DNA from: an uncultured Bacteroidales bacterium
GTDB taxonomy: Bacteria > Bacteroidota > Bacteroidia > Bacteroidales > UBA932
Length of the DNA stretch: 64,000 nt
Direction: 5' to 3'
NCBI GenBank assembly: GCA_900318565.1
Contig: ONLD01000001.1
Coordinates: 57,052 to 121,051, forward strand
The notes below the pieces were generated by a model that ran no database searches, was not told the DNA's origin, and was given only the letters and a program-made list of their open reading frames with translations. This document shows, in pieces, positions 19,687-49,752 of the stretch. A program made the position numbers and the translations under genes. Positions within the stretch are counted from its first letter, which is position 1. Each line of letters begins with the position of its first letter.

Positions 19687-22365
19687 TCAATACAGGTTCC
19701 AGTAAGGGATCAGTTCCGGAGTGCCTCCGGCAAGCTTGAGCTGCTGCTCGCTGAGGAACTCCTTCTCCACTGCCATACGGAACATATAGCGGCGCCACCA
19801 GGCGGCTTCCATCTGGATGTAGCCGTCCTGCCCGCGGGAAAGGCCGAAACTGTTCTCCGCCACCCAGCGGACTACCTTCCCGTCGGCACCGGTCTGCACT
19901 CCGCACATAGCCATCGCGTGGGCCGAAGAGACGTCGCGGCTGAGGAAAAGCTGCTCCTTGCTCATATGCCAGGCCTCGCCCTCGCGCGCCCCTTCAATTG
20001 CAAGGCGCGTGTCGTAGATGCCCTCGTCGGCAAGAGCGTCTTTATAAGTGTCCACGGTGAAGTAGAACTTCCTGGAAGCGCGCAGAGAGCGCATTCCTAT
20101 GACTTCCAAGTCCTCGGCGCTGAGGTTGAGGAAAGTCCACTCAGGGGCGTCGGCGGCGCTCCTGGAGCCCTGCACGCGATAGACTTTGCCGTACGGCCGC
20201 GTGGGGTCGTTCATAAGAATCACATAGCGCTCCTTCAGGTCCCCGAGGCCCAGGGCGTCGCGCCACTCCAGCGGAGTCCACTCGCGGCCCTCCAGGGTGA
20301 AGCGCTCAGGGGGCGTGCCGAGCGTGCGGGATAGCAGCTTCCAGGCTTCGGAAAGAGCTTCCGCGCGCACCGCTTCCGGGTCGGACGACTCGCGAAGGCG
20401 GAGGGCATAGCTGCGAAGCAGCGTGCGCATCGAAGCCAGCAGCGGGCCGGAATTCAGGGCCGTCTCGGTGTCGGGCATCGCCTCCTGGGGCACAATACCG
20501 TATTTATCAATAAGATACAGCGCATTCATAAACTGCCCGCCGTCCCAGGTCGGACGCCGCAGCAGGGTCTCGTTGAAGCGGCTGTCGAGCGGTTCCTTAC
20601 GGTGCTCCCAGATGTTTACCAAGAACAAGTTCGCCTTCTCCAGCATATCGTAGAAATAGGCATAAGCGGTGGAGAAATGCCTCCCGCCGCGAAGCACGTT
20701 GGCCGTAGAGAAGTACCAGCAGCGGCCCGAGCCGGCCTGGTCTGTGATGCCGCTGGCGGGAAGGAACACGTCGAGGCCGAGGGTGTCGGCCCGCATTGCC
20801 GCGCCGGACTCCGACAAGAGCCTGCGGGACTGGTCAGGTATGCTTTCTATGGCTGCCGGTGCCTTGAGGGCGAAACTCTGCACGGGCGGCATTTCGGGCG
20901 CAAGGCTTGCGGGCTGCTCGAACGGCGGCCTGCGGCTGCCCATAAGGGGCCGGAATGTGAAATCGGGACCGCGGCGGCTCTCGAATTCCTCCCGCACGGA
21001 AGCGAGCACTTCGGGCTTGGTGTAGAGCTCGTAGGCAGAAAGGAACAGCACGCGGGCTGCCCCGAGGGCGCCTTTGGTGCCTATCGTGGTGCCGGCGCTA
21101 GAGACCTGCTGCCAGCTGTGGCCTACCCCGCCCGGAGTGAAGCAGGCGTAGCGGAAACTGCCCGTAGGCACCGCCCAAGTCACGTTTCCTACGTCGCTGG
21201 ACACGTATGCTTCGTAGCCCTCATCCGCCGGCGGCACGACCACTCCCAGGCGGTCTATCAGCGAAGCGTCCACCCCTGACTGCGAGGCCACCTCGCGGGC
21301 AAACTCCATCTCGCGCGCATCCAGCTTGATGCCGCCGACCGTCTCCAGGCTGCGCCCCACAAGGGCCGCCATCGCTTCGTTGGGCAGGCGCTCGTAGTTG
21401 CCGGAGAGCAGCTCGTAGTCCATCGTAGTGCCCGTGCCGAGGGCTGCGCCGCGGGCGGCGTCAAGGGCCCTTTCCAACAGCTGCCCCACCACTTCCCGCG
21501 ACGGGCTGCGGAAATAGTAGCGCACGCTCGCCTTGTCGGGCACCACGTTGGGAGCCTTGCCCCCGTCGGTGATGATATAGTGGATGCGGCTCGTCTGCGG
21601 CACGTGCTCACGCATCATATTTATCATATAATCAAGCGCTTCGACGGCATCCAGCGCGGAGCGTCCCTCCTCCGGGGCCCCGGAGGCGTGCGAAGAGCGC
21701 CCGCGGAAAGTAAACTCCACCTGCACGTTGGCAAGGCCGGAAGCCTTGTTAACGGTATTACGGGTGTCGGGATGCCAGTCGAGCATAGCGTCGAGGCCCT
21801 CGAACACGCCGGCGCGCATCATATAGGCCTTGCCGCCACCGCCTTCCTCAGCCGGGCAGCCGAAGAGCTTGATCGTGCCCCGGTGACCTTCGGCGAGCCA
21901 TTTGGAGGCCGCCACCGCGCCTGCCACAGAACCGGTGCCGAGAAGGTTGTGCCCGCAGCCGTGGCCGTTGGCTCCCGGGATGAGGGGCTTGCGGTAAGGG
22001 ACGGTGTCCTGCGACATTCCGGCAAGCGCGTCATACTCGGCCATAATGCCGATTACCGGCGAACCGGCCCCGTAACTTGCCACGAAGGCAGTCGGGATGC
22101 CGCCGGCTCCCCTCTCCACCGTGAATCCGCAGCTCTCCAGGTACGAGGCCCACTGCTCCGCGCTGCGGACTTCCTCGTAGCAGGTCTCCGCATAGTTCCA
22201 TATGCGCTTCTGCAGCGAGTCGTAGAGATGGAAACTGCTCTCTATGTGCCTCAGGCCGGCGGCGGGAGAATTCTTCACCCGCTTCTTCCCTATTGCGAAG
22301 GAACCGGGCGAAGCGGCGCCTATCATCAGCAGGGCCGCACAAAATATTGCAAAAGTCTTTTTCAT
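19687..22365 (-). CDS. Secreted fusion of M20D amidohydrolase and C1B (PepC/bleomycin-hydrolase-like) peptidase
   Basis: 892 residues from the ATG at 22365, with a Sec signal. Residues ~30-450 are an M20D amidohydrolase of the p-aminobenzoyl-glutamate hydrolase (AbgB) type: metal ligands in G-H-G-C-G-H-N, the catalytic pair A-E-E-G, D-W-H-P-D and G-G-V-G-H-S-W. Residues ~510-892 are a C1B cysteine peptidase with a complete active site: Cys549 in S-G-R-C-W-Y-F-S, His in S-S-A-H-A-M-A-M, and Asn in A-E-N-S-F-G. Both halves look intact. Its start is 2 bases past the gltS stop, so it is coupled to a glutamate symporter. Likely role: trimming peptides and releasing glutamate from N-acyl-glutamate compounds outside the cytoplasm. 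I know of no standard family with this fusion. Confidence 0.88.
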   Translation of the reverse strand: MKKTFAIFCAALLMIGAASPGSFAIGKKRVKNSPAAGLRHIESSFHLYDSLQKRIWNYAETCYEEVRSAEQWASYLESCGFTVERGAGGIPTAFVASYGAGSPVIGIMAEYDALAGMSQDTVPYRKPLIPGANGHGCGHNLLGTGSVAGAVAASKWLAEGHRGTIKLFGCPAEEGGGGKAYMMRAGVFEGLDAMLDWHPDTRNTVNKASGLANVQVEFTFRGRSSHASGAPEEGRSALDAVEALDYMINMMREHVPQTSRIHYIITDGGKAPNVVPDKASVRYYFRSPSREVVGQLLERALDAARGAALGTGTTMDYELLSGNYERLPNEAMAALVGRSLETVGGIKLDAREMEFAREVASQSGVDASLIDRLGVVVPPADEGYEAYVSSDVGNVTWAVPTGSFRYACFTPGGVGHSWQQVSSAGTTIGTKGALGAARVLFLSAYELYTKPEVLASVREEFESRRGPDFTFRPLMGSRRPPFEQPASLAPEMPPVQSFALKAPAAIESIPDQSRRLLSESGAAMRADTLGLDVFLPASGITDQAGSGRCWYFSTANVLRGGRHFSTAYAYFYDMLEKANLFLVNIWEHRKEPLDSRFNETLLRRPTWDGGQFMNALYLIDKYGIVPQEAMPDTETALNSGPLLASMRTLLRSYALRLRESSDPEAVRAEALSEAWKLLSRTLGTPPERFTLEGREWTPLEWRDALGLGDLKERYVILMNDPTRPYGKVYRVQGSRSAADAPEWTFLNLSAEDLEVIGMRSLRASRKFYFTVDTYKDALADEGIYDTRLAIEGAREGEAWHMSKEQLFLSRDVSSAHAMAMCGVQTGADGKVVRWVAENSFGLSRGQDGYIQMEAAWWRRYMFRMAVEKEFLSEQQLKLAGGTPELIPYWNLY

Positions 22366-22367
22366 AA

Positions 22368-23702
22368 TCACTTTGAAGGCTTCTTCAGCCAGCCCTTCGC
22401 GACTGCAAGGCCGAGAATCGCCACGCCCGCCATCAGGCAGACGGTCACGAAGAGCCAGCCGAGTCCGTGGCAGAAAGCCAGGGGCGACAGGCTCACGAGG
22501 GCTATTTCCACAGGCGCGATATACAAATATGCGAAGGCATAATCATCCAGGCAGCCGCTCTTGGAATCAGGGTCCGTGATGCGCAGGAGCGCGATTCCCA
22601 TAGCCATCGTGCCGGTAAACCAGCCCCAGGTGAAGATGGATTTCTCGAAGGGCGCGCTCTTGTGGATGCGGTTCCCCACCCAGAACACATAGAACAGTGT
22701 GACCACCAGGCCGGCGGCCAGCAGCACCAGCAGGGGCACGACGAACTTGCCGACAATCTGAAGCTTGATCGAAGCCACGCCGAAGGCCACGAGGTAATCG
22801 GTGAACGCACCGCTGAGGTGCCCTATGATGGGCTTGGAGATGTGTTCTTCGACCTTCGCCCTGGCAAGAATCCAGCGTATGAGTATGCCCACGATGAACG
22901 CGCAGCTGAACACGGGCAGCATCAGCGCGGGCCAGATGAGCGAAATCAGCTTGGCAAGCCCGTAGCCGCCCAGGGCTATCATCGCCACCACGGCGAAGTT
23001 GAAAGTCATCGAGTCCAGGGAGATGGCGGAGAAAGACGCCTTGCCCATACTGACCCTCTTGTCGGGCGGCAGGATACCGGTACGGAGCTCCGGGGAGAGC
23101 TTTTCGAAAGCGCAGATATACTGGGTCTTGCCTCTTGCAGCTCCCCAGGAAATCAGCCACATACCGATGACCACGGAAGCTATGATGCCCACGGTGGCGG
23201 CCGTCATAGCCAGCGACTGCATCTCCTCGACGCCGTACGAGGCGAATGACTCACCGATAGCCGCAGCAGTGCCGTGGCCGCCGCAGAATCCAGCCGGCAT
23301 CGAAAGACCGAAGGACTCGTGGACGGGCCAGATACGGCTGAGCACCCAGAGTCCGAGCGCGCCGCCGAAAGCCCACTGCAGCAGCAGTCCGGCCTGCGAG
23401 TAAGCCCACATACGGCCGATGCGGGAAGTACCGTCGGAGCGGCGTCCGCCAGCAGAAGTGATAGGTATGCAACTGAACACCAGCGCGATAAGAATTCCGG
23501 CATAGGTGCCGAGGTTGTCAGAGAGCGGGAGCCATCCCAACACCTCGGGGCCGAGCAGCAGGGCGGTCAGGCCCGCCAGGAGGCTCGGCGGGATGAAGAA
23601 CTTCTGGATAAGGCGCACCTTGGACCGCAGCAGCTTTCCAAGCAGCAGCAAGAGTGAGACAATACCCACATCAATAAGAAGGGTCCAAGGCGTAAATGTC
23701 AT
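22368..23702 (-). CDS. gltS: Sodium/glutamate symporter, GltS family
   Basis: 444 residues with about 11-12 hydrophobic segments. Recognisable parts are I-P-P-S-L-L-A-G-L near the N terminus, G-F-C-G-G-H-G-T-A-A-A-I-G (the family's glycine-rich hairpin region) and F-V-V-P-L-L-V-L-L-A-A-G-L. GltS imports glutamate with Na+ across the inner membrane. It overlaps the C45-like gene upstream by 4 bases and nearly touches the M20D-C1B gene downstream, so the three are translationally coupled. The context fits uptake of glutamate released by those hydrolases. Confidence 0.88.
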   Translation of the reverse strand: MTFTPWTLLIDVGIVSLLLLLGKLLRSKVRLIQKFFIPPSLLAGLTALLLGPEVLGWLPLSDNLGTYAGILIALVFSCIPITSAGGRRSDGTSRIGRMWAYSQAGLLLQWAFGGALGLWVLSRIWPVHESFGLSMPAGFCGGHGTAAAIGESFASYGVEEMQSLAMTAATVGIIASVVIGMWLISWGAARGKTQYICAFEKLSPELRTGILPPDKRVSMGKASFSAISLDSMTFNFAVVAMIALGGYGLAKLISLIWPALMLPVFSCAFIVGILIRWILARAKVEEHISKPIIGHLSGAFTDYLVAFGVASIKLQIVGKFVVPLLVLLAAGLVVTLFYVFWVGNRIHKSAPFEKSIFTWGWFTGTMAMGIALLRITDPDSKSGCLDDYAFAYLYIAPVEIALVSLSPLAFCHGLGWLFVTVCLMAGVAILGLAVAKGWLKKPSK

Positions 23703-24832
23703 AGCGAGAAACGGTTTTTGTATTTGACAAAGCGCCGGTCAGCGCCGCTGTTGTACTTATCCACCGCCTCGGCGTCAAAGCCGGAGCGGCGCATCTTGCG
23801 GGTGAGGCAGCGCCCCTTGCGCATCTCCCGCCTCTCGGCGCAGCGGACCTTGCGCTCAATGCGGCGCAGAGCCCGGGCATCGACCATCTTGACCTCCGAC
23901 TCATCGGAGTGCACGCTGAGGTACAGGGCCACGGCAAGGCGGTTGGCTTCGGCACGCCCGGTAAGGCATTCCGGGATACGGGAACCCGCCGCCACCCACA
24001 CGGGGACGGCATAGCAGCAGGGAGTGTAGCCCGGGGCGCACCACATCATTCCGGAGTCCAGGGGCTCGCCGGGGGCGGGCCCTTCGATGACTACGCAGGC
24101 CGTGGTGGTGCTGCGCGGGATGAAGTCGTGCTCCTCCAGCAGGCCGCTGCGGGTGGCGCGGAGGGCGTCGGTGCCGTCCTTGTAGAAGGTCCTCCCGGCA
24201 GTGAAGAAGAACTCCGGAGTGAAAGTCTTCCGCCCTTCCATCAGGCCGCCTATGGTGCGGAAGCGCTCGAAGCCCTTCCCCCTGCCTTCCTCGCCCGTGA
24301 GCGAGTAATTGGTGCGGTAGAGATAACCGCCGGGGGAGACGTCGAAGCGCGTCCAGCTGCTGTCAGAGACCTCGAAATAAGCCGCTCCGCCTTCGGCGTC
24401 GATCAGCGCGAAATTGGTGCTGAGCAGCATCGGCCGGGGCATTTCCTGCAGCATACGCTCGAAATCGTCCACTGTCCGGCAGCATCCGAGGGCGCGCGCC
24501 ATCAGAGGGCCCGCCTTGGTGTCGAATCCCAGGGAATCGGGGCGAAGGTTGTAGGAAAGGTTGTTGACGATGGCAAAGCCCGCGGCGTTGAGCCCGGCGT
24601 AAGCAAGGGTACAGAGGCTGTCCCGCGTGGGGAACAGGGCCGTGTAGGGTATTTCCACGCCCTCGCTTATGTGGACGATGCGGTTGTACGGGTCGGAAGC
24701 GTCACGCTGCTTCCAGAGCATAGGACGCCCGGACGCGCTCGCGCCCGCCGACACGATAGCGGTCGTGCAGGCGAGGGCTTCGCCGCCCAGAAACAGCAGG
24801 AATCCTGCGAGTATGGCCCCGATGCGTCTCAT
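23699..24832 (-). CDS. Exported Ntn-hydrolase (C45 / linear amide C-N hydrolase type)
   Basis: 377 residues. The signal peptide ends A-L-A just before Cys22, so signal cleavage would expose the N-terminal nucleophile: C-T-T-A-I-V-S-A-G-A-S-A-S-G-R-P-M-L-W-K-Q-R-D follows the pattern of the choloylglycine-hydrolase/acyl-CoA:6-aminopenicillanate acyltransferase superfamily. Later N-N-L-S-Y-N-L and R-T-N-Y-S fit the fold's conserved Asn and Arg/Asn sites. These enzymes cleave amide bonds in small molecules or peptides. The C-terminal ~60 residues are rich in Arg/Lys. It overlaps its neighbours on both sides by 4 bases. The substrate is unknown; a cell-wall peptide or N-acyl amino acid would fit the locus. 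Confidence 0.78.
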   Translation of the reverse strand: MRRIGAILAGFLLFLGGEALACTTAIVSAGASASGRPMLWKQRDASDPYNRIVHISEGVEIPYTALFPTRDSLCTLAYAGLNAAGFAIVNNLSYNLRPDSLGFDTKAGPLMARALGCCRTVDDFERMLQEMPRPMLLSTNFALIDAEGGAAYFEVSDSSWTRFDVSPGGYLYRTNYSLTGEEGRGKGFERFRTIGGLMEGRKTFTPEFFFTAGRTFYKDGTDALRATRSGLLEEHDFIPRSTTTACVVIEGPAPGEPLDSGMMWCAPGYTPCCYAVPVWVAAGSRIPECLTGRAEANRLAVALYLSVHSDESEVKMVDARALRRIERKVRCAERREMRKGRCLTRKMRRSGFDAEAVDKYNSGADRRFVKYKNRFSL

Positions 24833-26019
24833 TTGCGGATTTTATAGCCCCAGTAGGCGTAGAACATAATAAGCAGGTAGAACGGCAGGCATATCCAGTA
24901 GGCGTTCTGATTCCCCACCCAGTCCTTCATCGAGCCGAAGAGCAGCGGGATGAGGGCGCCGCCGCCGATGGAAGCCACCAGCAGCGAGGAGCCTTTCTTC
25001 GTGAACTTGCCGAGGTCCACGATGGCAAGCGGCCAGATGGCGGGATACATCAGCGAGCAGGCGAAGCTGAGCAGAGCCACGCACCACACGGAGACCTGCG
25101 GAGGCGTCAGCACGATGAGCAGCGAATCCACCACGGCCAGCCAGGTGCAGATGCGGAGCGCCTTCACCTGGGAAATGAACTTGGGAATGCACAGGATGCC
25201 TATTACGTAGCCCGCGGCCATTCCTATGCCGGGCCAGATGGTGTAGCTCTCGGGGTTGGGAAGGCCGAGGCCCTGGGCATAGTCGAGCACGGTCAGCAGC
25301 GCCAGGTTCTCCACGCCCACATAGACAAAGAGCGCCAGGGCGCCGAGCACCAGGTGCGGGAACTCCCAGATGCTCTTCTTGCCGGCGGCGTAGGGGCAGT
25401 CCTCCTCGTTCTCTTCGCCCTGCGCCTTGATTTCCTCGAGCGGGGCGAAGATGGTCACGATGCCCAGAAGCACCACGACGCCGATGATGATGAGCAGCGG
25501 CGTGTCGAGGTCCTGAAGTCCCACGGCCTCGATGGGCTTGCGGGTCACGGCGGCGATGAACACGGAGGGCAGCGCCAGGGCTATGGAGTTGCATATACCC
25601 ATTATGCTGATGCGGCGTGCGGCACTGTCGATGGGCCCGAGTATGGTCACATAGGGGTTGATCGCGGCCTGGAGCACGGTATTGGCCGTGCCGCTGATGA
25701 AGCAGGCGAGAAGGTAGAGGGCGAAACTCTCGAGCCGCGCCGCCGGGATAAAGAGGCCGAATGCTATCGCAAACATAAAGAAGCTCAGCGACATAGTCTT
25801 CTTGTAGCCTATCTTGGCAATGATGCTCGATGCGGGGAAGCTGAACACCAGGAAGGCCAGGAAGGTGGCTGCGATGACCAGGTAACTCTGCGCCGAAGTA
25901 AGATGCAGATTATTCTCCAGGAACGGCACGAAATAGCCGTTGATACCCGTGGCGAACCCCACGGTAAAAAACATCATCCCTATAAATGCCAGGGGAACAA
26001 TATAATTCTTATTCGCCAT
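24829..26019 (-). CDS. FHS-family sugar MFS transporter (FucP/NagP-like)
   Basis: 396 residues with 12 predicted membrane segments. The stretch G-T-A-N-T-V-L-Q-A-A-I-N-P-Y-V-T-I-L-G-P after the fourth helix pair is typical of the fucose/glucose-galactose/GlcNAc proton symporters used by Bacteroidota. It overlaps the kinase gene by 11 bases and the C45 gene by 4. Beside an amino-sugar kinase, MurQ and two GH20 enzymes, the likely cargo is GlcNAc or MurNAc; specificity cannot be read from the sequence. Confidence 0.87.
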   Translation of the reverse strand: MANKNYIVPLAFIGMMFFTVGFATGINGYFVPFLENNLHLTSAQSYLVIAATFLAFLVFSFPASSIIAKIGYKKTMSLSFFMFAIAFGLFIPAARLESFALYLLACFISGTANTVLQAAINPYVTILGPIDSAARRISIMGICNSIALALPSVFIAAVTRKPIEAVGLQDLDTPLLIIIGVVVLLGIVTIFAPLEEIKAQGEENEEDCPYAAGKKSIWEFPHLVLGALALFVYVGVENLALLTVLDYAQGLGLPNPESYTIWPGIGMAAGYVIGILCIPKFISQVKALRICTWLAVVDSLLIVLTPPQVSVWCVALLSFACSLMYPAIWPLAIVDLGKFTKKGSSLLVASIGGGALIPLLFGSMKDWVGNQNAYWICLPFYLLIMFYAYWGYKIRK

Positions 26020-26863
26020 TGTTCAGATGATATTTGATAAGTCCTTCCATAGGGGCCTGAAGGATATTGCCCATACGCATACCGAATTCTTCTACGACAT
26101 TCTGCAGAAGAGGCCTGAAGTAATATGCCACCGAGCCCACGGCGTTGAAGGTATAAGTCTGATAGTCAGGATAATGGGTAACTATGAGCTTAAAGAACTG
26201 CCGGAAGGCGTCGGTGACGAGGTCCGGGAAATAGGGGTCGAAATCCAGATTTGCGGCGATGAACTTGGCATACTGGGCGCAGAAGCGGTTGGGGAAAGGC
26301 TTGGTGTATATTATATCCAGCAGCTCATCGTTGTTATGGCCCAGTTCCTTACCCACGAGTTCATATACTTTCGGCGGCATATTGCGGCGTATGTAGTCAG
26401 TAATCATACGCTTGCCCAGATTGGCCCCGCTGCCTTCGTCTCCGAGGATGAAACCGCAGCTGTCCACGTTCAGGCCCTCGTTGCAGCCGTCGTAGAGGCA
26501 GCTGTTGGCGCCAGTGCCGAGAATCGCGGCGAAGCCGGGCTCGGTCTGCAGAAGCGCACGGCAGGAAGCCAGGGTGTCCATAGCGATAAATACCTTCCCC
26601 GCCTTGGTGAAGACCTTCAGCAGCGTCTCCTCCATAAAGGGATACTGGAGAGGGGTCACGCCGGCACCGTAAAAGTAAATCTCGCTGACTTCATCCACGG
26701 GAAAGCCCTCGGGCAGGCTGGACTTGATGTCCTCGACTATCTGGGGACCGGTAATATAGTTGGGGTTATATCCCTGAGTAAAGAATCCTATGCGGGTCCG
26801 ACCGTCCTTGCTCACACAAGCCCATTCGGTCTTAGAAGCTCCGCTGTCTGCTATAAGTATCAT
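26009..26863 (-). CDS. BadF/BadG-family amino-sugar kinase (GlcNAc or MurNAc kinase, NagK/MurK-like)
   Basis: 284 residues, the normal length. ASKHA-fold motifs are present: phosphate-1 loop A-D-S-G-A-S-K-T-E-W at the N terminus, phosphate-2 loop I-L-G-T-G-A-N-S near residue 116, and F-I-L-G-D-E-G-S-G-A-N-L-G. Bacteroidota members of this family phosphorylate GlcNAc, and in Tannerella a relative (MurK) phosphorylates MurNAc before MurQ acts. With murQ encoded 12 kb upstream in the same locus, MurNAc is a credible substrate; GlcNAc is equally possible. It is cytoplasmic. Confidence 0.87.
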   Translation of the reverse strand: MILIADSGASKTEWACVSKDGRTRIGFFTQGYNPNYITGPQIVEDIKSSLPEGFPVDEVSEIYFYGAGVTPLQYPFMEETLLKVFTKAGKVFIAMDTLASCRALLQTEPGFAAILGTGANSCLYDGCNEGLNVDSCGFILGDEGSGANLGKRMITDYIRRNMPPKVYELVGKELGHNNDELLDIIYTKPFPNRFCAQYAKFIAANLDFDPYFPDLVTDAFRQFFKLIVTHYPDYQTYTFNAVGSVAYYFRPLLQNVVEEFGMRMGNILQAPMEGLIKYHLNNGE

Positions 26864-26875
26864 ATTTATAAGTTG

Positions 26876-29113: not shown

Positions 29114-29131
29114 AACTCAATCTTTAAATGG

Positions 29132-29162: not shown

Positions 29163-29171
29163 AAAAAAGTT

Positions 29172-31583: not shown

Positions 31584-31595
31584 AGGTCAAACATT

Positions 31596-33730: not shown

Positions 33731-33749
33731 AATCAATAGGTATTTGGGA

Positions 33750-38815: not shown

Positions 38816-39639
38816 AATTTGCCTTGGGCTTTAAGGTATTCTTCGGCTTTCACCAGACCGCCGGTCTTCTTGATGACCTCTTCGCAGAACTCGTAACTGA
38901 GCTGGGGGTTGCGCTCCACCATCGTGCGGGTGAGGCGGTCGATGACTTTGTTGTTGATAAGGTTGGCACAGACCATACGGTTGCCCTGCACGCGGCCGAG
39001 GCGCACCATAATGACGGTGCTTATCATATCGCACATCAGCTTCTGGGAGGTGCCGGACTTCATACGGGTGCTGCCGGTAATGAATTCGGGACCCATCACG
39101 ATTTCGATAGGATAGTCCACATAGGAGGAAATAGGGGAACCGGGATTGTTGCAGATGCTTCCGCAAGGGATGCCGTGCTCCTTGCAGGCCTTCATCGCGG
39201 CCATCACATAGGGGGTGTTGCCGCTGGCGGAAATGCCCACGACGATATCCTTGGGAGTGATGTGGTGCTTGTCGCGCAGGGTCCTCCAGCCTTCTTCCAC
39301 GTCGTCTTCGGCCTCTTCGAGGTCAAGGACCAGGTTCTCCACGCCGCCGGCGAGCACTGCCTGCCATATTTCAGGATCCACGCCGTAGGTGTTGGGGACT
39401 TCCAGCACGTCCAGCACGCCGAGTTTGCCGCCGGTGCCGGCTCCGAGCCAGAAGAAGCGGCCGCCTGCGCGGAGTTGGCTCTCAATGGCCGTACAGAGCT
39501 TTTCTATGTCGGGAAGCACCGCTTCGATTGCGAGGGGCACTTTCTTGTCTTCGGTGTTGATGTCACGCAGCAGTTCAGCTACGGATTTTGTCTCAAGATG
39601 GTCGTACAGGGACGGCTGTTCAGTTAGTCTTACACTCAT
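38812..39639 (-). CDS. murQ: N-acetylmuramic acid 6-phosphate etherase
   Basis: 275 residues, slightly short but within the family range. MurQ cleaves D-lactate from MurNAc-6-phosphate to give GlcNAc-6-phosphate in the cytoplasm. SIS-domain signatures are clear: W-L-G-A-G-T-G-G-K-L-G-V-L-D-V-L-E (usual form G-A-G-T-S-G-R-L-G-V-L-D-A-S-E), G-I-S-A-S-G-N-T-P-Y-V, and T-R-M-K-S-G-T-S-Q-K-L. The first loop has G-G-K in place of S-G-R, a modest departure. Its presence shows that muramic acid, hence bacterial peptidoglycan, is a likely input to the locus. Confidence 0.93.
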   Translation of the reverse strand: MSVRLTEQPSLYDHLETKSVAELLRDINTEDKKVPLAIEAVLPDIEKLCTAIESQLRAGGRFFWLGAGTGGKLGVLDVLEVPNTYGVDPEIWQAVLAGGVENLVLDLEEAEDDVEEGWRTLRDKHHITPKDIVVGISASGNTPYVMAAMKACKEHGIPCGSICNNPGSPISSYVDYPIEIVMGPEFITGSTRMKSGTSQKLMCDMISTVIMVRLGRVQGNRMVCANLINNKVIDRLTRTMVERNPQLSYEFCEEVIKKTGGLVKAEEYLKAQGKL

Positions 39640-39647
39640 TTCTTTCG

Positions 39648-41492: not shown

Positions 41493-43296
41493 AACTGCTG
41501 AAAAACTCTTTCGTAACGGTCTTGCCCAGAGGCTGTCCCTTGGCTGTAAAGGCACGGGCCTTGATGACCGCGTCCTTGTCAACCATAAACGGATTTCCGT
41601 CATAGACAGGAGAATCCGCGGTAGGCTCGCTACCGTCCAGCGTGTAGTGCACCACGCCGTCAGGATAATCCAGCTCCAGATTCATAGGCTTCGGGAACGG
41701 AAGACGACGGTCGTAGTCGAAAATAACTTCGTAATACACAGGGCAGTAGCCGATGTGCTTCATATCCAGACGACGCAGAATCTTCGGCATACGCATCCGG
41801 AAACTCTCCCAGTCCTTGTTGGGACGGCTCGTCCAGGCCACCTCGGCCGCGGCGACGTTGCGCGGGAATGCCATCCACTCCGCCTTCTCGCTGTCGGGAA
41901 TATACTCTGTCCAGAGGCAGGTTTCGTAACCTATAATATATTTCTTGCTCAAGTCGGGAATGGAATCCACCGCAGGATAATAGTTGTACACCTTCTTCAG
42001 GGGCATAAACACCTCCTGCGCCAGGTCGTCCGGCTGGTCGTCCTGATGGTTGTCAAGGTAGCACCAGCGGTTCGGGGTCAGCACCACGCGGATGCCGCGG
42101 CGGATACCGCGAGCTGCGGGGGCGTGGCCGCGGTAGGACATTGCGATAGGATCCTCAAGGGCGCCGCCGTCCAGGATCTCATCCCAGCCGATGACGGTCT
42201 TGCCGTGCTCCTTGAGGAAATCGCCAATACGCTTCACGAAGAAGGTCTGGAGCTCCTCGACGTCCTTGAGACCGAGCACCTTCATAAGGTCCTGGCAGTA
42301 CTGGCTCTCACGATACACATCCTTCGGGGCCTCGTCGCCGCCGATGTGGTAGTAAGGCGAAGGGAAGAGTTCGAACAGTTCCGTGAACACATCCTCCAGG
42401 AACTGGAAGGTGCGGGCAGTAGGAGCATAGAGGTTCTTCCAGATGCCCCAGCGGGTTTCCACCTCATAGCTGCGCTCGGGGAAGCAACTCAGCTCGGGAT
42501 ATGCGGCAATGGCGGCGGTGCTGTGGCCGGGGATTTCCACCTCCGGTATCACGGTCACGCACCTCCTGCGGGCGTACTCCACGACCTCGCGGATGTCGTC
42601 CTTGGTGTAGAATCCGCCGTGCGGAATGCCGTTGCCTATCCAGCTGTGGAACGCCGTCTCCTTGCGCCAGGCACCGATTTCGGTGAGGCGCGGATACTTG
42701 TCGATCTGGATGCGCCATCCCTGGTCCTCGGTCAGATGCCAGTGGAACATATTCTGCTTGTGCATTGCCATCAGGTCGATGAACTTCATCACCTCCTCCT
42801 TGGGGAAGAAATAGCGTCCGGAGTCGAACAGGAAGCCGCGGTAGGCAAATTCCGGCTCGTCTTCAATCTTGCAGCAGGGAGCCTCCCACTTGACTTTCTT
42901 CACGGGAGTGTCCGAGAAAATCTCGGCCGGAAGCAGTTGCAGGAAGGTCTGCAGTCCGTAGAAAGCACCCGGCACGTCGGAAGCCTCAACGAGCACCTCG
43001 GAAGGGCTGACGCTGAGCTTGTAGGCTTCTTTGCCGAGCCCCCCGATCTTGCGGAGCACGATTCCGGAGCCTTTGCCGTCGAGGGCGAATCCGGTGGAAG
43101 CCTTGACCGTGGAGGTGAAATCCTCGGCGATTTCTTTGAATTCAGGCGCCTCGACCAGCAGCCGGCTCGTCTTGCCAATCACAAACGAACCATCGGCGGG
43201 AGTTAGGCTCCTGGGAGTAGGGACTATATCGTAGCGGGGAGGCTGGCTCACCGGCGCCACGGTAAGTAAGGCAGCAAGCAGAAAGGATAGTATCAT
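41482..43296 (-). CDS. GH20 beta-N-acetylhexosaminidase, secreted
   Basis: 604 residues with a Sec signal (no lipobox). The domain plan is as in its neighbour: GH20b-like N-terminal domain, catalytic barrel with F-H-W-H-L-T-E-D-Q-G-W-R, catalytic Asp321-Glu322 in H-I-G-G-D-E-A-P, and a C-terminal domain with V-H-Y-T-L-D-G-S-E-P. The lack of a lipid anchor suggests a periplasmic location, complementing the anchored paralog. It overlaps the ceramidase-like gene by 4 bases. Confidence 0.94.
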   Translation of the reverse strand: MILSFLLAALLTVAPVSQPPRYDIVPTPRSLTPADGSFVIGKTSRLLVEAPEFKEIAEDFTSTVKASTGFALDGKGSGIVLRKIGGLGKEAYKLSVSPSEVLVEASDVPGAFYGLQTFLQLLPAEIFSDTPVKKVKWEAPCCKIEDEPEFAYRGFLFDSGRYFFPKEEVMKFIDLMAMHKQNMFHWHLTEDQGWRIQIDKYPRLTEIGAWRKETAFHSWIGNGIPHGGFYTKDDIREVVEYARRRCVTVIPEVEIPGHSTAAIAAYPELSCFPERSYEVETRWGIWKNLYAPTARTFQFLEDVFTELFELFPSPYYHIGGDEAPKDVYRESQYCQDLMKVLGLKDVEELQTFFVKRIGDFLKEHGKTVIGWDEILDGGALEDPIAMSYRGHAPAARGIRRGIRVVLTPNRWCYLDNHQDDQPDDLAQEVFMPLKKVYNYYPAVDSIPDLSKKYIIGYETCLWTEYIPDSEKAEWMAFPRNVAAAEVAWTSRPNKDWESFRMRMPKILRRLDMKHIGYCPVYYEVIFDYDRRLPFPKPMNLELDYPDGVVHYTLDGSEPTADSPVYDGNPFMVDKDAVIKARAFTAKGQPLGKTVTKEFFSSYGK

Positions 43297-44651
43297 AGTG
43301 CGTTGGTAATTGTCTTTTCAATTGCTCTTGAATAGACTTCCGGCATTTTGTCCGAAAGCGGATAGGGAGCCTTGATATATACGTGCATCTGGTCGATTTC
43401 ATACTCGTAGCCCTTGCGGTACTCGTACGCGTGGGCGGAAGGGAGATATGAATTCTGACCGTTGGTGTAGCCGGCGAAGATGACGGTGCGGCCGGGGAAA
43501 TGTTTGCGGGCTTCCATCTGGTACTCGCAGAAAGGCTCGCCCTGGGTGAAGTAGAATAGGATGCCGTTGATGTTGACGGCGCCCATAGTGAAGTCCAGGG
43601 TATTGCGCACCTTGCCCTCGGCGAAGCGGCTGAGAATCAGATTCTTCCAACCTTCGACATCCTCGTTCCAGCTCCAGTTGAGGGAGAGCTCGCCGCCCCA
43701 TTTCTCTATCAGTTCGGCGGCGTGCGCCTCGACGGCCTCGGGAGTCACTTCGGCGATGCGGAACGGCAGGCCCACGGTGTCATTGACAACTTTGAACTCT
43801 CCGTCCGGCCGCACGGCCTCGAATTTCACCTTCAGCAGCGAATCAGCCAGGCAGCGGCCGCATTCTTCGGCATACTCGGCCATCTTCGGGCCTTCCGCCG
43901 GGTCCATATTGCCCGCAGCCCCGGTCAGCTGGAACACGTCGCCGCCCCAGGCCTCGCGCAGAATCTTGCTGTACACGCCGGGATAGTCCGAAGACACCAG
44001 AAGGCTCTTCGGTCCCATACAGACGGGGTGGCAGGCGAGGTTGACCACGGACACGACCGGAGCGCCGCTCTTCTCGAGGAAACGGACCACGTACACGTCG
44101 CGGTCCACGGGGCCGGTTTTCTCGCAGCGGTTGCCGTTGATGCTGGTCTGCGCCTTGCCGACTTGCATTTTAAAAGGACGGAAGGCCGCCTCATCCGTGA
44201 TGGTCTTCACTGCGTTCTCGACCAGCACCCGGTGCAGGCGTTCCTTGTGGGAGTAGTTGCTCCCGCCGGGTTCCGCCCTCCAGCCGCCGTTGCGCGGGGC
44301 GGAGTGGGTGTGGATGCAGTGCATAAAGATACGGTCGAGCGGCAGACCGCTCTTCTCCGCTATCTCCTTGCGCCATTCCAGGCTCAGGTCTGGAGAAATC
44401 TCCATCAGGTCGTTGGAGATGATGCATACTTTGTCCGTGCCCTTCCCCACCACGAGGCAGTGGGTGTTCAGGGGAAGATGCAGGTCCGTGGAAAGGTCGT
44501 TGCGCGCCGCAAATCCGGCAAGCATAGTGTGCTCGCCCTCCACGGTGGAAATGTCGGCTGCGTTGTAGTTGAGCACCAGTTCCTCCCCCCGGCATCCGCA
44601 AAGGATACCGAGGAGAATGAGAACCGGTAAATATAAGCGTTTAATAAACAT
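43293..44651 (-). CDS. Neutral/alkaline ceramidase-like lipoprotein amidase
   Basis: 452 residues, lipobox L-C-G-C (Cys19). It matches the N-terminal catalytic domain of neutral ceramidases: M-L-A-G-F-A-A-R near the start, the zinc-binding stretch C-I-H-T-H-S-A-P, A-C-H-P-V-C-M-G with a further metal His, and G-A-A-G-N-M-D-P at the place of the G-N-x-G-D-x-S-P nucleophile region, where the usual Ser is less obvious. The true substrate of such short Bacteroidota members is not known; it need not be ceramide, and an N-acyl amino sugar or lipid amide would fit the locus. It overlaps the SusD gene end by 11 bases. Confidence 0.76.
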   Translation of the reverse strand: MFIKRLYLPVLILLGILCGCRGEELVLNYNAADISTVEGEHTMLAGFAARNDLSTDLHLPLNTHCLVVGKGTDKVCIISNDLMEISPDLSLEWRKEIAEKSGLPLDRIFMHCIHTHSAPRNGGWRAEPGGSNYSHKERLHRVLVENAVKTITDEAAFRPFKMQVGKAQTSINGNRCEKTGPVDRDVYVVRFLEKSGAPVVSVVNLACHPVCMGPKSLLVSSDYPGVYSKILREAWGGDVFQLTGAAGNMDPAEGPKMAEYAEECGRCLADSLLKVKFEAVRPDGEFKVVNDTVGLPFRIAEVTPEAVEAHAAELIEKWGGELSLNWSWNEDVEGWKNLILSRFAEGKVRNTLDFTMGAVNINGILFYFTQGEPFCEYQMEARKHFPGRTVIFAGYTNGQNSYLPSAHAYEYRKGYEYEIDQMHVYIKAPYPLSDKMPEVYSRAIEKTITNAL

Positions 44652-46671
44652 ATCCGGGATTCTGTACGAGAGTACCCTGAGTCTTGTCTATTTCAGGCTG
44701 AGGGATAGGCATAAGATAATTAGGATAATCTTCGGGATTCTCGACGCCGGGCTTGTTGGAACAGGTAAGCGAGCCGGACTGAGGCTTGATGTTGCGGCCC
44801 TTGTTGGGGAACCATTTCTGAGTGGGGGAAATGGTGAGGCAGCATTCGCCATAGTCCACGGTGTAGGTCTTGCCCTTCCACACATAGTTGACGATGTAAG
44901 CCACGTCGTTGCCGTTGTTCTTCTGGATGTAGCCCTCGCGCTCGCTGGTGTTGGCCCAATAGTAATTGCGGTTCTTGTTGGCGAGAGGAGCGGGCTGCAC
45001 GCAGCGGTAGAGAGTCTCCACCTTGCTGCCCTTCTCAAGGCGCATCGTGCGGGTGCCGGCGAAAGGCACGTTCTCATAACCGGTGGCTATCTTGAGACGG
45101 CGGGTGTCGAAGTAGCGGAAAGACTCGAAAGCGAGTTCGATACGGCGCTCATTTACCACCTCGTCCCACAGGGCGTCGCCGGATTCGGTCACCTCGGGCA
45201 TCATAACGTCAGCCCTGCCGCGCACCTTGTTGAGATAGGTGCGGCACTCGCCTTCACGGCCGGTCTGGAATGCGGCTTCTGCCATATTCAGATACATCTC
45301 GCCGAGACGGAACCAAGGATAGACCACGTTGCCGATAAGGGATTCGGAGATGTACTTGTTGGGCATATACCACTTGGTCAGGCCGCTGCCGCCGGTGTTG
45401 GTCAGGTCGATCTGGTCGCTGGCCTTCTTGGAGGTCACAGGCTCTTTCTTGCCCTTGTCGAAATCACTGACTTCAGTGTTTTCATAAAGCAGGTAAAGAT
45501 TGAGGGGAGTCTCGTTGGCGCCGCCGTTCTTGTCTGTCCACTTGTAAATCTTTCCGGGATAGATAATGCAGTGCTCGAAACGAGGGTCACGGTTCTTGAA
45601 AGGCTGCAGGGGGTCGTAGCCGGAGCCTTCCTCGAAGATCTTCTTGCCGTTCTTCATCTCATAGTCGAGCCACATAGCCTGGGTGGGGTTGAAGCTCTCC
45701 CAGCCGCCGCCGCCGAAGTCCATAAGGGAATAGAAAAGCTGGGCCTTGTGCGGCTGGCCGCTGCTCTGGACGAAATATTTGCCCCAGATGATCTCAGGGG
45801 AGTTGCCGTCGGTCCAGAAGCCGTCGTAAGTATCGTCGAGGGAATATGCACCGTCCACGTCTGCGCGGTCGCAGATAGCCTTGGCTGCTTTATATGCTTC
45901 CTCCCACTTATCCTTGGAATAAGTGCCGCGGAACACGCCGCCGGTCGGGAAGTTGGGATCGTTGAACAGAGGAGAAGCCGCGATGAGGGTCAGGCGGCAG
46001 CGGAGAGCCAGCACGCAGTCCTTGTGGACGCGGCCCTGGGCGGTCCCGGTCTTCTCGGGCAGCAGGGAATAAGCTGCATCGAGGTCGTCTTTGATGAATT
46101 GGACACAATCGTCGAAGTCGGCGCGCTGCTCATTGAATTCGGCACCGAGGTCTTCGTGGGGCTTGTCCACCAGGACCACGCCGCCGTAACGCTGGATCAG
46201 GTTGGTGTAGGCCCAGGCGCGGAGGAAATAAGCCTCGCCGAGCAGACGGTCCTTGGCGGCCTCTGTCATACTGGAGCCCTTCTCATTGACGAAACGGATG
46301 AAGTAGTTGAGACGGTAGATGTACTCATAGGCACGGTCCCATATATTCAGGAAGGTGGTGCGGGTGGGGTGGGCGGGACCGCCGTGGTTCTGGTCGACGA
46401 TGTTGCTCGGGGTCATTGAGCCGTCGGCGATATAACGGGTGGAAGTGCCGCCGTAGCGGAAAAAGCCTTCGTCTGAAATACAACCTGTGTTGCCCTCGGT
46501 GAAAGGATCGGGAAGCACGGTATAGATGGCGTTGATATAGCTCTCGGCAAGAGCGTCGCTGTTGAATACAGCTTCTTCAGAGAGCTTGTCCAGCGGCTTC
46601 TTGTCCAGGAAACCGTCGTTGCAGGCGGTCAGCAGGGACAGGGTTGCAAGAATGTAGAATATCTTTTTCAT
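44641..46671 (-). CDS. RagB/SusD family outer-membrane lipoprotein
   Basis: 676 residues, lipobox L-L-T-A-C (Cys17). Family hallmarks are A-Y-F-L-R-A-W-A-Y-T-N-L (helical region), P-W-F-R-L-G-E-M-Y-L-N-M-A-E-A, V-N-E-R-R-I-E-L-A-F-E-S-F-R-Y-F-D-T-R-R and the terminal Q-N-P-G-Y. It is the lid and capture protein of the SusC next to it (12 bases apart), importing the oligosaccharides or glycopeptides produced by this locus. The long length suggests a large ligand site. Confidence 0.96.
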   Translation of the reverse strand: MKKIFYILATLSLLTACNDGFLDKKPLDKLSEEAVFNSDALAESYINAIYTVLPDPFTEGNTGCISDEGFFRYGGTSTRYIADGSMTPSNIVDQNHGGPAHPTRTTFLNIWDRAYEYIYRLNYFIRFVNEKGSSMTEAAKDRLLGEAYFLRAWAYTNLIQRYGGVVLVDKPHEDLGAEFNEQRADFDDCVQFIKDDLDAAYSLLPEKTGTAQGRVHKDCVLALRCRLTLIAASPLFNDPNFPTGGVFRGTYSKDKWEEAYKAAKAICDRADVDGAYSLDDTYDGFWTDGNSPEIIWGKYFVQSSGQPHKAQLFYSLMDFGGGGWESFNPTQAMWLDYEMKNGKKIFEEGSGYDPLQPFKNRDPRFEHCIIYPGKIYKWTDKNGGANETPLNLYLLYENTEVSDFDKGKKEPVTSKKASDQIDLTNTGGSGLTKWYMPNKYISESLIGNVVYPWFRLGEMYLNMAEAAFQTGREGECRTYLNKVRGRADVMMPEVTESGDALWDEVVNERRIELAFESFRYFDTRRLKIATGYENVPFAGTRTMRLEKGSKVETLYRCVQPAPLANKNRNYYWANTSEREGYIQKNNGNDVAYIVNYVWKGKTYTVDYGECCLTISPTQKWFPNKGRNIKPQSGSLTCSNKPGVENPEDYPNYLMPIPQPEIDKTQGTLVQNPGYVY

Positions 46672-46683
46672 AATGGGCTCTGA

Positions 46684-49600
46684 TTAGAAGGTTACTTTGA
46701 CACCGAAGTTGAAAATCCTGACCTGAGGATAGGTCTGGTATCCTTCGTCACTGGTCTCCGGGTCGACGTTCTTCAACTCGGAGAAGGTGAGGAGGTTGTA
46801 GCCGGCGGCATAGACGCGGATGTTCTTGATTCCGACCTGGTGGCCGAACACGGCACCGGGCAGGGTGTAGCCGATTTCGAGGTTCTTCAGACGCAGGAAC
46901 GCGGCATTGCGGTAGTAGTAGGAAGTACGATACACGCCGCCGTTTCCGATGTTGGAGGCGATACGGGGATGGTCGGTATCCTTGTTGTCAAGAGTCCAGG
47001 CGTTGACTGCCGCATCCATCTCGATATTGCCGGACACGGGGTCGGTCAGAGGAGCGTAGTAGTAACGGGCACGGGCCTGTCCCTGGAGGAGGAGCGAGAG
47101 GTCGAAGTTCTTCCACTGCAGGTCGCCGTTGAGACCGAATACAATCTGCGGCACCGCGGTGAGGTCCATCCTCATACGGTCGTTGGAATCGATCTTGCCG
47201 TCTTTGTCGAGGTCCTCGAAGTAGAAGTCACCGAGACCGGCGCCGGACATCTGGGGATGATTCTCGATGTCCTCGAAGCTGCGGTTGATACCGGCAACCT
47301 GGTAGATAAGGGATGCGCCCATAGGATGGCCGGTCTGGTTCATATATTGATGATTCTCGTCGTAAGGAGTCTCATCCATAAACTCGATGGTGTTCTTGGC
47401 GTACATAATGTTGCCTGCAACCCTGTATCGGAGGTCGCCCACCTTGTTTTCGTGGTTGAGCTGGAGCTCGACACCCTTGTTGGACACGATGCCGATGTTC
47501 TCGTCGGGCAGGTTGCTGGTCAGACCGGTATAGTACGGCACTGAAGCGTTGCGGGTGCAGAGGATGTTGCTGCGGCGGGTGTAGAAGCCTTCGAGTTCCC
47601 ATCCGAAGAGACCGTTGTGGATGTTTCCGTCCAGACCGATATTCCAGGTACGGGCGACTTCCCAGGTGATGTTGGGATTGGGCACGCCGTTGGGAATGAT
47701 GTAGTTGACTTCCTTGTTGTCATAGAGGGCACGGTAGGAAGTGCTGGAGGAGTATTCATAGGTGGAGAGATACTGGAACGCGGCCACCTGGTCGTTACCC
47801 TGCTCGCCGTAGGAAGCACGTATCTTGAGGTTGGAGAGCCAGGGGGCGTTGTCCTTGAGGAAAGGCTCCTCGGAAATACGCCAACCCATAGAGACTCCGG
47901 GGAATATACCCCAGCGCTTGTCTGCGGGGAAGTTCTCGCTTCCGTCGAAACGGACGAGGGCCTGAATCATATACTTGCTCTTGTAGTCATATCCGATACG
48001 GCCGAAGAAAGAGCGGCGGGCCGTTTCGGAAGCGAAGCCGCCGATTTTGTAGTAGGCCTTGTCGGCGTTGCCGGCGAAGAACTCGTCAAGGATGTCGGAA
48101 TCGTATTTCTCGATGGCGGCATTGAAATAGTCGCGGCGGTAGTTGCTCTGCTCGAAACCTGCGAGGGCGGTCACGTGGTGGCCGTTGAAATCGCGGTCGT
48201 AGTTGATGTTGGCGTTGACGGTGACGGTGTGGTAGTTGTTCTGGCTCTCATTGAGGGTAGGAGTCGTGAACACGCCGCTGTCGCGCAGACGGTAGGTCTC
48301 CGTGATTTCGTCGTAGGAGTAGCACGGCCAGTTCTTGGACCAGTTCTTATGGAAGTTGTTGTGCACGTCGTATGCGAGCACTGCGTTGATTGACAGGCCC
48401 TTGGTAATGGCGTGGAGGTCGTAGTTGCCGCGGAACGTGGTGTTGATGGTGTTGTAGGTCGTGTTGTCGTAACCGGTAAGGTTCTGCACGAGGGCCGCGG
48501 GGTTGGCGCCGCTGCGCAGGTTGCCGTTGGGATAGTAGGGAGCGCCGGATGCATAGCGGCGGGTCGTGATGTAGAAGATACCGTAGGAGTCGCTCGGGTA
48601 AGCCGAGTAGTTCTTGTGCTGCTGACGCACGTTCAGGTCAACGCCGAGCTTGAAGTCCTTGGTCACCTGGATATCCACGTTGGAGCGCACGTTGTACTGG
48701 TTGTAGTTGGTAGCGGACTTGACGTAGATACCGTCCTGGTACTGACCGTTGAACTGCAGGAAGTAGCTGACCTTGCCGGCGCCGCCCTGCAGGCTGACTC
48801 CGTACTTGTGCTGGGAGGAGAAGGGCTTGATGATCTCCTTGAACCAGTTGGTATTGGGGTAGTTGATGGGGTCGTCCTGGTCGATGTAGTGCTGAATCTG
48901 CTCTTCGGTGTAGATAGGGGAAGCACCGGTAATCGCACGGGCTGCGTTGTAAGCCTTTGCAAATGCGACGGCGTCCGCCATCTCGACCAGGCGGGTCGGA
49001 GACTGCATACCATAGTCGTAGGAGAAGGTCACGCTGGGGGTGCCGTCGGTGCGGCCGCGCTTCGTGGTCACGAGGATGACGCCGTTGGCGGAACGTGCAC
49101 CGTAGATAGCTGCGGAAGCATCCTTCAGGACGTTGACGCTCTCGATTTCATCACCGGTCAGACGGGAGAACTCATCGCCACGTCCGGGCACGCCGTCGAT
49201 GATGATGAGCGGGGAGTTGTTGCCGAGAGTCGAACGGCCGCGGATATACATAACCGCATCGTCCCTACCAGGCTCACCGGAACGGTTGTTGACGATGACG
49301 CCGGAGATACGGCCTGCAAGACCCTGGGAGAGGTTGACCGAAGAGTTCTTCACGAGGTCTTCACCGGTGGTGCTGGCCACGGAACCGGTCAGGGTCACCT
49401 TGCGCTGGCTGCCGTAGCCGATGGCCACGGCCTCGTCGAGCACGAGGTTGTCGTCTTTAAGGGCAAAATCGATGGTCGTGCGCCCTTCGACCTTAACCGA
49501 CAGCTCCTCATAGCCCATCAAGTTTGCAGTGATGGTGGCGTTGGGGGAGACGTTGCTTAAGGAATAAGCGCCGTCCACATCGGTCATAGAGCCGTTCTGG

Positions 49601-49752
49601 GTGCCTTTCACGATAACCATAGCGCCGGGGAGGGGCTCCCCTTTGCTGTCAGTCACGCGACCCTGCACACGGATGCGGTTCTGGGCCCCGACGGGCAAAG
49701 AAACCGCCAGCGCAAGAGCCGCCAACAGAATAGTGAATAGATGTTTTTTCAT
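46684..49752 (-). CDS. SusC/RagA-type TonB-dependent receptor
   Basis: 1022 residues: Sec signal, CarboxypepD_reg-like domain (V-Q-G-R-V-T-D-S-K-G-E-P-L-P-G-A), TonB box/plug region (A-V-A-I-G-Y-G-S-Q-R, then D-A-S-A-A-I-Y-G-A-R-S-A-N-G-V-I-L-V-T-T-K), and the barrel ending in F-N-F-G-V-K-V-T-F. It is the first gene of the 30-kb minus-strand locus and the outer-membrane entry route. There is no N-terminal extension for anti-sigma signalling, and no sigma/anti-sigma or hybrid regulator is encoded beside it. Confidence 0.97.
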   Translation of the reverse strand: MKKHLFTILLAALALAVSLPVGAQNRIRVQGRVTDSKGEPLPGAMVIVKGTQNGSMTDVDGAYSLSNVSPNATITANLMGYEELSVKVEGRTTIDFALKDDNLVLDEAVAIGYGSQRKVTLTGSVASTTGEDLVKNSSVNLSQGLAGRISGVIVNNRSGEPGRDDAVMYIRGRSTLGNNSPLIIIDGVPGRGDEFSRLTGDEIESVNVLKDASAAIYGARSANGVILVTTKRGRTDGTPSVTFSYDYGMQSPTRLVEMADAVAFAKAYNAARAITGASPIYTEEQIQHYIDQDDPINYPNTNWFKEIIKPFSSQHKYGVSLQGGAGKVSYFLQFNGQYQDGIYVKSATNYNQYNVRSNVDIQVTKDFKLGVDLNVRQQHKNYSAYPSDSYGIFYITTRRYASGAPYYPNGNLRSGANPAALVQNLTGYDNTTYNTINTTFRGNYDLHAITKGLSINAVLAYDVHNNFHKNWSKNWPCYSYDEITETYRLRDSGVFTTPTLNESQNNYHTVTVNANINYDRDFNGHHVTALAGFEQSNYRRDYFNAAIEKYDSDILDEFFAGNADKAYYKIGGFASETARRSFFGRIGYDYKSKYMIQALVRFDGSENFPADKRWGIFPGVSMGWRISEEPFLKDNAPWLSNLKIRASYGEQGNDQVAAFQYLSTYEYSSSTSYRALYDNKEVNYIIPNGVPNPNITWEVARTWNIGLDGNIHNGLFGWELEGFYTRRSNILCTRNASVPYYTGLTSNLPDENIGIVSNKGVELQLNHENKVGDLRYRVAGNIMYAKNTIEFMDETPYDENHQYMNQTGHPMGASLIYQVAGINRSFEDIENHPQMSGAGLGDFYFEDLDKDGKIDSNDRMRMDLTAVPQIVFGLNGDLQWKNFDLSLLLQGQARARYYYAPLTDPVSGNIEMDAAVNAWTLDNKDTDHPRIASNIGNGGVYRTSYYYRNAAFLRLKNLEIGYTLPGAVFGHQVGIKNIRVYAAGYNLLTFSELKNVDPETSDEGYQTYPQVRIFNFGVKVTF

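Follow-up and report, generated by a model that had tools for sequence, protein, structure and literature searches.

Could a gut Bacteroidales bacterium feed on the cell walls of the methanogens around it? The question is raised by a run of genes, all read in a single direction on the minus strand, at positions 19687–49752 of a 64,000-nucleotide stretch of DNA (hereafter, the window) from an uncultured Bacteroidales bacterium of the UBA932 lineage (contig ONLD01000001.1; host assembly of 2.31 Mb in 104 contigs). An earlier note on the window had named these genes in order and proposed that they degrade pseudomurein, a wall polymer of methanogens. The content is as named: the Pfam scan, which covered 17 of the 18 named genes (a 40-residue open reading frame, ORF, being the exception), agrees with it, and the order recurs in other genomes. 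A SusC/SusD pair stands together with co-directional degradative genes, as in other polysaccharide utilization loci (PULs) of Bacteroidota, with which the locus also shares lipoproteins, glycosidases, and a transporter. The locus is real and conserved, and more than a chance assembly, since its order recurs in three genomes (G107, G118, and G114) and, within the limits of the contigs, in 36 Bacteroidota loci. We lean towards the view that it lets gut Bacteroidales bind pseudomurein from the walls of Methanobacteriales, cleave it, and feed on it. No bacterial locus for the utilization of archaeal walls was found among the matches listed in the open-licence PMC literature.

The evidence begins with the peptidase P0002. 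The earlier note had likened the repeats and the transglutaminase-fold peptidase of the locus to PeiW and PeiP (psiM100 and psiM2; MEROPS C71). Like these, P0002 has an N-terminal repeat region related to PMBR, followed at the C-terminus by a domain of transglutaminase fold that contains Cys, His, and Asp. The three residues (C291, H326, and D341 in P0002 numbering) are invariant in 35 aligned sequences, and the triad was equated with that of PeiW by motif, by eye. An AlphaFold model of P0002 (367 residues, pLDDT 87.7) was built on an alignment of 35 sequences that left out 7 of 41 loci (L035, L036, L038, L043, L064, L065, and L072). In fold searches with this model, PeiP ranked first both in the PDB (8z4f, E 1.5e-8, 337 columns) and among viral models (E 1.4e-8, 352 columns); PeiW (4.7e-3) and PeiR (1e-2) were further listed matches, in a list of transglutaminase-fold proteins of many uses. 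The outcome that the earlier note had considered damaging, i.e., no PMBR or C71 match combined with no fold match, did not arise: a sub-threshold PMBR match was found, and PeiP is the top fold.

Sequence searches point in the same direction. The closest match of P0002 in a phage collection of 50,697 records is a PMBR protein (so named from its annotation only) of Methanobacterium virus Drs3 (AXN53416.1); the catalytic domains are 40.9% identical over residues 222–369 (E 1e-23) and share the stretches TANC..[DN]DP and Y[KR]ELPF. Plasmid records gave 59 matches, the best of the 20 listed having E 1e-6, and scans of viral contigs with the P0002 alignment, the Drs3 protein, and a Drs3–Oscillospiraceae alignment returned no relatives. 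The Drs3 protein, unlike P0002, is viral and has three clear PMBR (62.4 bits); since it also carries Transglut_core and a C71 match of 20.7 bits, just under the cut-off of 22, it bridges the P0002 type and the Pei enzymes. In a tree of catalytic domains, 32 PUL peptidases, five Oscillospiraceae proteins, and Drs3 are split from 13 generic Bacteroidota transglutaminases with support of 95/90. The generic set comprised 15 loci, of which L015 yielded no row; this tree was computed without PeiP, PeiW, vir080, and one generic row. Both this tree and an earlier one containing PeiP, PeiW, and vir080 were built without L035, L036, L038, L064, and L065, which were taken as near copies.

The proposed wall-binding function would rest with the repeat lipoproteins P0001, P0004, and P0005. 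Pfam gave no PF09373 (PMBR) match in any of the three, so that the Pfam test suggested in the earlier note ended in one sub-threshold match, in P0002. Profile comparison reaches further: hhalign of the P0001 family against Oscillospiraceae PMBR arrays gave 1e-11, with reversed and unrelated controls at 0.19–0.56. The N-terminus of P0002 gave 9e-11 against the same arrays (the reversed control was run for the P0001 family alone), and the P0001 family matched the P0002 N-terminus at 5e-19, a value part of which may stem from lipoprotein-signal residues within the alignment. The N-terminal part of P0001 is, by these profile alignments, related to PMBR. A repeat unit of ~216 aa recurs in P0001, P0004, and P0005; it may constitute a new binding fold, to judge from its model. 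The unit alignment took in 26 units, those found by regular expression. A second protein with such a unit is encoded elsewhere in the same genome (G000:C102:57612-58286, in L148); its frame spans 988 aa, its unit is 93% identical to one of the P0001 units, and the 22.4 kb examined around it yielded no other gene of the locus.

The distribution of the peptidase and of the repeats is closely matched. The P0002 type (E 1e-57 or better) occurs in 5 of 149 genomes of the family, and the P0001 type, at 1e-25 with the best four candidates per genome scored, in the same five; were the genomes independent, the chance of this would be 1/C(149,5) = 1.7e-9. The P0003 type occurs in those five and in G140, where it lies on another contig. 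Gene order is almost unchanged in G107, G118, and G114, while G096 has the genes on two contigs, and in the four family genomes that were read further the locus starts with SusC/SusD. In a sample of 395 genomes of the class, a P0002 match at 1e-15 was obtained for the window's own genome alone (0/394 others).

A scan of 84,980 species returned 41 loci, i.e., 36 in metagenome-assembled genomes (MAGs) of Bacteroidales/Bacteroidia, one of them titled Candidatus Cryptobacteroides, and five in MAGs of Oscillospiraceae; all are bacterial, and as one of the two search patterns demands GNCCD, this is no evidence against archaea. Near the peptidase in the 36 Bacteroidota loci we found GHL10-like genes (34), repeats (33), BadF kinase (31), the major facilitator superfamily (MFS) transporter (30), GH20 (27), and MurQ (26). 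SusD (10/36) and SusC (3/36) were seen less often; flanks of 10 kb seldom reach them, and many contigs end early. Variants of the arrangement exist. L057 has a reduced module SusC-SusD-GHL10-repeat-peptidase followed by a second SusC-SusD-ceramidase-GH20 run, L049 is similar, and in L052 the module is accompanied by a single GH20, BadF, and MFS, with no MurQ adjoining; in all three genomes a PUL-type MurQ is found elsewhere or in a second copy. JAFRSW010000022 (L046, L057) carries two peptidase copies ~17.7 kb apart, one of them within a reduced module.

The five Oscillospiraceae loci (L069–L073; four MAGs titled water deer or dairy cattle rectum) encode large proteins that look secreted and combine arrays of PMBR with a C-terminal transglutaminase domain whose last residues are LPF; in L069 there are two peptidase-like matches, from one or two genes. 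The three of these proteins that were scanned have Transglut_core and PMBR above the cut-off (2, 6, and 5 stretches), and a genome search for PMBR was positive in two of three genomes. Judging from their domains, they appear to be bacterial PMBR-peptidases in a second phylum. That some bacteria possess PMBR was reported earlier (PMC2989375; PMC3124540).

How might such a locus work? Pseudomurein is described as having beta-1,3 bonds, L-amino acids only, and isopeptide bonds of the epsilon and gamma kinds (PMC12996149). At the cell surface, lipoproteins whose repeats are of PMBR type or related to it (P0001, P0004, and P0005; lipoprotein status is predicted from the N-termini) would hold wall fragments, while the PeiP-like P0002 would cut the peptide cross-links with its Cys-His-Asp center and three GHL10-like enzymes the glycan. 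The catalytic part of one of the latter, P0003, is 41% identical to that of P0006 and 73% to that of P0005. The glycan would be imported by SusC/SusD and relieved of N-acetylglucosamine (GlcNAc) by the two GH20 enzymes; the peptides would fall to the ceramidase-like amidase together with the C45 hydrolase and the M20-C1B fusion. Amino sugars and glutamate would enter through the MFS and GltS proteins, and the BadF kinase would phosphorylate the sugar. Both the cellular locations and the order of the steps are putative.

Several observations weigh against this reading. Unlike PeiW and PeiP, P0002 is a bacterial protein from a SusCD locus. PMBR was detected in only two of eight Bacteroidota peptidases scanned (P0002, 19.1 bits at residues 128–157 in the Pfam protein scan, and that of L033, 18.2 bits), in both below the cut-off of 24.9, and not even at E <= 10 in those of L003, L004, L005, L006, L059, and L067. 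None of the eight matches PF12386 (Peptidase_C71) at E <= 10. Likeness to PeiP in the fold search goes with low TM-scores (0.32 and 0.27, the former in the PDB with a root-mean-square deviation of 16), so that the resemblance concerns individual parts more than the way they pack together; a transglutaminase-like protein of Cytophaga, 3isr, is a close second in the PDB (1.8e-7). The latter is also the best PDB sequence match for P0002, for Drs3, and for the family profile with Drs3 included, which reaches it at 1.8e-10 and finds no Pei enzyme at E <= 1. In blastp, PeiP retrieved 15 of 37 PUL proteins with a best E of 0.010, i.e., the relation is barely detectable. In the first tree the PUL, generic, and vir080 rows leave a single fork and long branches meet; for the second, the program flags a meeting of long branches, those of Drs3 and Oscillospiraceae. 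Profile kinship of the ~216-aa unit is weak (0.067 to PMBR arrays and 4.8e-4 to the P0002 N-terminus), and a PDB search with its model (pLDDT 89.4) returned nothing at E <= 0.001. In one study, PMB domains also bound lysozyme-treated bacterial spheroplasts (PMC3124540). No gene for the use of talosaminuronic acid was recognised. Titles that mark ruminants were found for 24 of the 36 Bacteroidota loci (11 RUG, a label we take to denote ruminants, 12 RGIG, and one reindeer), a share for which the base rate is unknown; the remaining titles name an SRR run (five) or some other sample (seven). Finally, a pseudomurein substrate leaves the divergent MurQ without an explained role: known MurQ chemistry belongs to murein, and the PUL-type MurQ is present in 8/8 peptidase-bearing genomes checked. 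Because PMBR is found in just two of the eight peptidases and the family profile misses the Pei enzymes in the PDB, we lowered our confidence in the pseudomurein reading slightly, to a little better than even.

For the weak PMBR scores there is a parallel. PeiR of provirus phi-mru is active on methanogens, and its two PMBR score 12.4 bits in Pfam (PMC6189367); weak PMBR scores, such as that of P0002, hence do not rule out function. The catalytic domain of PeiR is of C39 type, unlike that of P0002. With fold, sequence, phylogeny, and profile comparison on one side, and weak PMBR and lacking C71 matches on the other, P0002 looks built like a Pei enzyme and is not assigned to C71, as the C71 model is unmatched. 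For the central idea of the earlier note there is support from anatomy and kinship, but none at the level of function. As to the substrate, the relatives in a methanogen virus, the many ruminant hosts, and the 17 scanned proteins devoid of matches to murein-type domains (NlpC/P60, LysM, Amidase_2/3, and lysozyme-type) lend indirect support to pseudomurein as the putative substrate.

The main rival is a locus for scavenging peptidoglycan (muropeptides), with a Pei-like peptidase and PMBR-like repeats recruited against bacterial walls, and we consider it fairly unlikely. MurQ classically acts on the 6-phosphate of N-acetylmuramic acid (MurNAc), a murein sugar. The earlier note listed MurQ and missed the conflict, namely that MurQ, the BadF kinase, and the MFS transporter resemble a salvage set for MurNAc from bacterial murein. 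Such a set of transporter, BadF-type kinase, and MurQ is likewise present in Tannerella (MurT-MurK-MurQ); the PUL copies differ in being divergent and in sitting with Pei-like and PMBR-like proteins. If murein were the substrate, GH20 would take GlcNAc off GlcNAc-MurNAc, the ceramidase-like amidase would free the peptide, MFS would import MurNAc, the BadF kinase would phosphorylate it, and MurQ would remove the lactyl ether. The PUL MurQ passes NF003915 and keeps two glutamates that we take to be catalytic. The BadF kinase of the locus, P0008, has no Pfam match and a weak NagK profile match; it has kinase relatives in the PDB and is homologous to the Tannerella MurNAc kinases MurK/K1058 (phmmer, 4e-53 to 2e-56). 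Against murein, the genome has another MurQ, a paralogue of P0010, adjoining another BadF-type kinase on contig C79, and the PUL MurQ misses the TIGR00274 equivalog cut-off and is altered at conserved places: in 26 PUL sequences TSGR is replaced by TGG[KR], PPT by PNT, and VEGAED by LEEAED or LEEMED relative to the C79 copy, and the changes hold also relative to two etherase structures whose alignments were compared. In 32 PUL kinases, D-S-C (31/32; one D-S-L) stands where MurK has S133-P134-L135 in its lactyl pocket, and Met precedes the catalytic Asp in the comparison with T94 of MurK, both matched by eye to the numbering of the paper. K1058, with Arg-Ala at the lactyl-pocket site, still phosphorylates MurNAc (PMC10465942). 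No murein-type peptidase or lysozyme domain was matched in the locus, as said above.

As proof of a murein substrate MurQ itself was rejected, the PUL MurQ being a divergent second copy; its changes as proof of a new substrate were rejected too, since sibling loci share them together with the D-S change of the kinase, and they are not markers of the Pei-bearing locus alone. PUL-type MurQ (>= 60% identity, i.e., at least that) occurs in 10 of 149 family genomes, including all five with the peptidase. A sibling core of ceramidase-like amidase, GH20, MurQ, and BadF exists in five other family genomes (G052, G034, G067, G140, and G003; L123–L132) without the P0002 type or the P0001 repeats and with a weakly similar SusC, a fact that speaks for murein and against pseudomurein. 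In G052 the sibling locus further includes a C1B peptidase and a fusion of GH18 with GHL10. Either the whole set serves murein, and the variant in the window has added tools against methanogen walls, or it acts on polymers of GlcNAc and an acidic partner, which in the window's variant would be pseudomurein. It is conceivable, by analogy, though doubtful, that the divergent MurQ has been repurposed within a bacterial pseudomurein-utilization locus. GH20 would then trim terminal GlcNAc, N-acetyltalosaminuronate-(1,3)-GlcNAc, an acidic disaccharide, would be imported and 6-phosphorylated, and MurQ would eliminate the O3-linked uronic acid from GlcNAc-6-phosphate, as it does the O3-lactyl from MurNAc-6-phosphate. 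Such a role would account for the presence of a MurQ paralogue alongside a methanogen-wall enzyme; the same MurQ type in sibling loci lacking the peptidase weighs on it. Improbable, to our mind, is a locus directed at glycoproteins rich in GlcNAc or at mixed debris of microbes (methanogen surface glycoproteins, host glycans), whose peptidase would cut isopeptide or other protein bonds and not a wall polymer: GH20 and the G052 fusion are general for N-acetylhexosamine glycans and transglutaminase-fold proteins serve many uses, but the kinship with Drs3 and PeiP, the PMBR relation, and the association of peptidase and repeats argue otherwise. That the enzymes lyse competitors (methanogens) rather than feed the cell would fit the nearest known enzymes, which are viral lysins; since MFS, BadF kinase, and MurQ accompany the peptidase in 30, 31, and 26 of 36 loci, which suggests uptake and catabolism, we regard such an antagonism device as very improbable.

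The features of the locus are collected in Table 1. Outside it, at 53033–59927 of the window, lie genes for GH92 (plus strand) and for GH28 and alpha-L-fucosidase (minus strand).

Table 1. Genes of the candidate pseudomurein-utilization locus, with positions in the window and domain or profile matches.
Feature	Position	Strand	Evidence
SusC-like TonB-dependent transporter	46684..49752	-	CarbopepD_reg_2 + Plug (Pfam); locus head in G107, G118, G114, G096
SusD-like glycan-binding lipoprotein	44641..46671	-	SusD_RagB 146.5 bits
P0007, neutral-ceramidase-like amidase	43293..44651	-	Ceramidase_alk 26.6 bits, below cut-off 32.1
GH20 beta-N-acetylhexosaminidase a	41482..43296	-	Glyco_hydro_20 357.8 bits
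GH20 beta-N-acetylhexosaminidase b	39648..41603	-	Glyco_hydro_20 403.8 bits
P0010, divergent MurQ-like etherase (SIS protein)	38812..39639	-	NF003915 286.8 bits (cut-off 168); TIGR00274 236.3 bits (cut-off 302)
P0006, lamin-tail domain + GHL10/DUF4434-like glycosidase lipoprotein	37478..38815	-	LTD 28.4, DUF4434 17.6 bits, both below cut-off
P0001, 1216-aa repeat lipoprotein (residues counted from internal ATG at 37440)	33790..37440	-	N-terminal PMBR-related stretch, BACON 38.2 bits, ~216-aa repeat units
P0002, PeiP-like peptidase	32627..33736	-	PMBR-type region + transglutaminase-fold catalytic domain; Transglut_core 66.2 bits
PMBR motif inside P0002	33266..33355	-	PF09373 genome search, E 3.6e-4, 22.6 bits, below cut-off 24.9
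P0003, GHL10/DUF4015-like glycosidase lipoprotein	31731..32615	-	DUF4015 33 bits, cut-off 27
40-residue ORF between GHL10-like and repeat genes	31596..31718	-	ORF alone
P0004, repeat lipoprotein	29172..31583	-	BACON 42.3 bits; two ~216-aa units
P0005, repeat unit fused to DUF4015/GHL10-like glycosidase	26876..29113	-	DUF4015 27.2 bits, cut-off 27
P0008, BadF-type amino-sugar kinase	26009..26863	-	phmmer to 1zbs 3.2e-61, and to Tannerella MurNAc kinases
MFS sugar transporter	24829..26019	-	gluP 213.7 bits (cut-off 202.55); NagP 273 bits (cut-off 625)
P0009, C45/AAT Ntn-hydrolase	23699..24832	-	AAT 29.4 bits
GltS-type sodium/glutamate symporter	22368..23702	-	Glt_symporter 66.6 bits
M20 amidohydrolase fused to C1B (bleomycin-hydrolase-like) peptidase	19687..22371	-	Peptidase_C1_2 228.5, Peptidase_M20 41.3 bits

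Much of the methane that ruminants give off comes from methanogens whose walls consist of pseudomurein. If the pseudomurein reading is true, the locus would represent a turnover route for methanogen biomass, on which no paper was found among the literature matches listed. It would also be a possible store of wall-cutting enzymes working at body temperature; the known Pei enzyme is inactive at 37 C, according to a review (PMC2989375). Perhaps it would also supply the first glycosidases for the pseudomurein glycan. And if the enzymes act on murein instead, the link between viral Pei-like enzymes and the salvage of bacterial muropeptides would itself be new.

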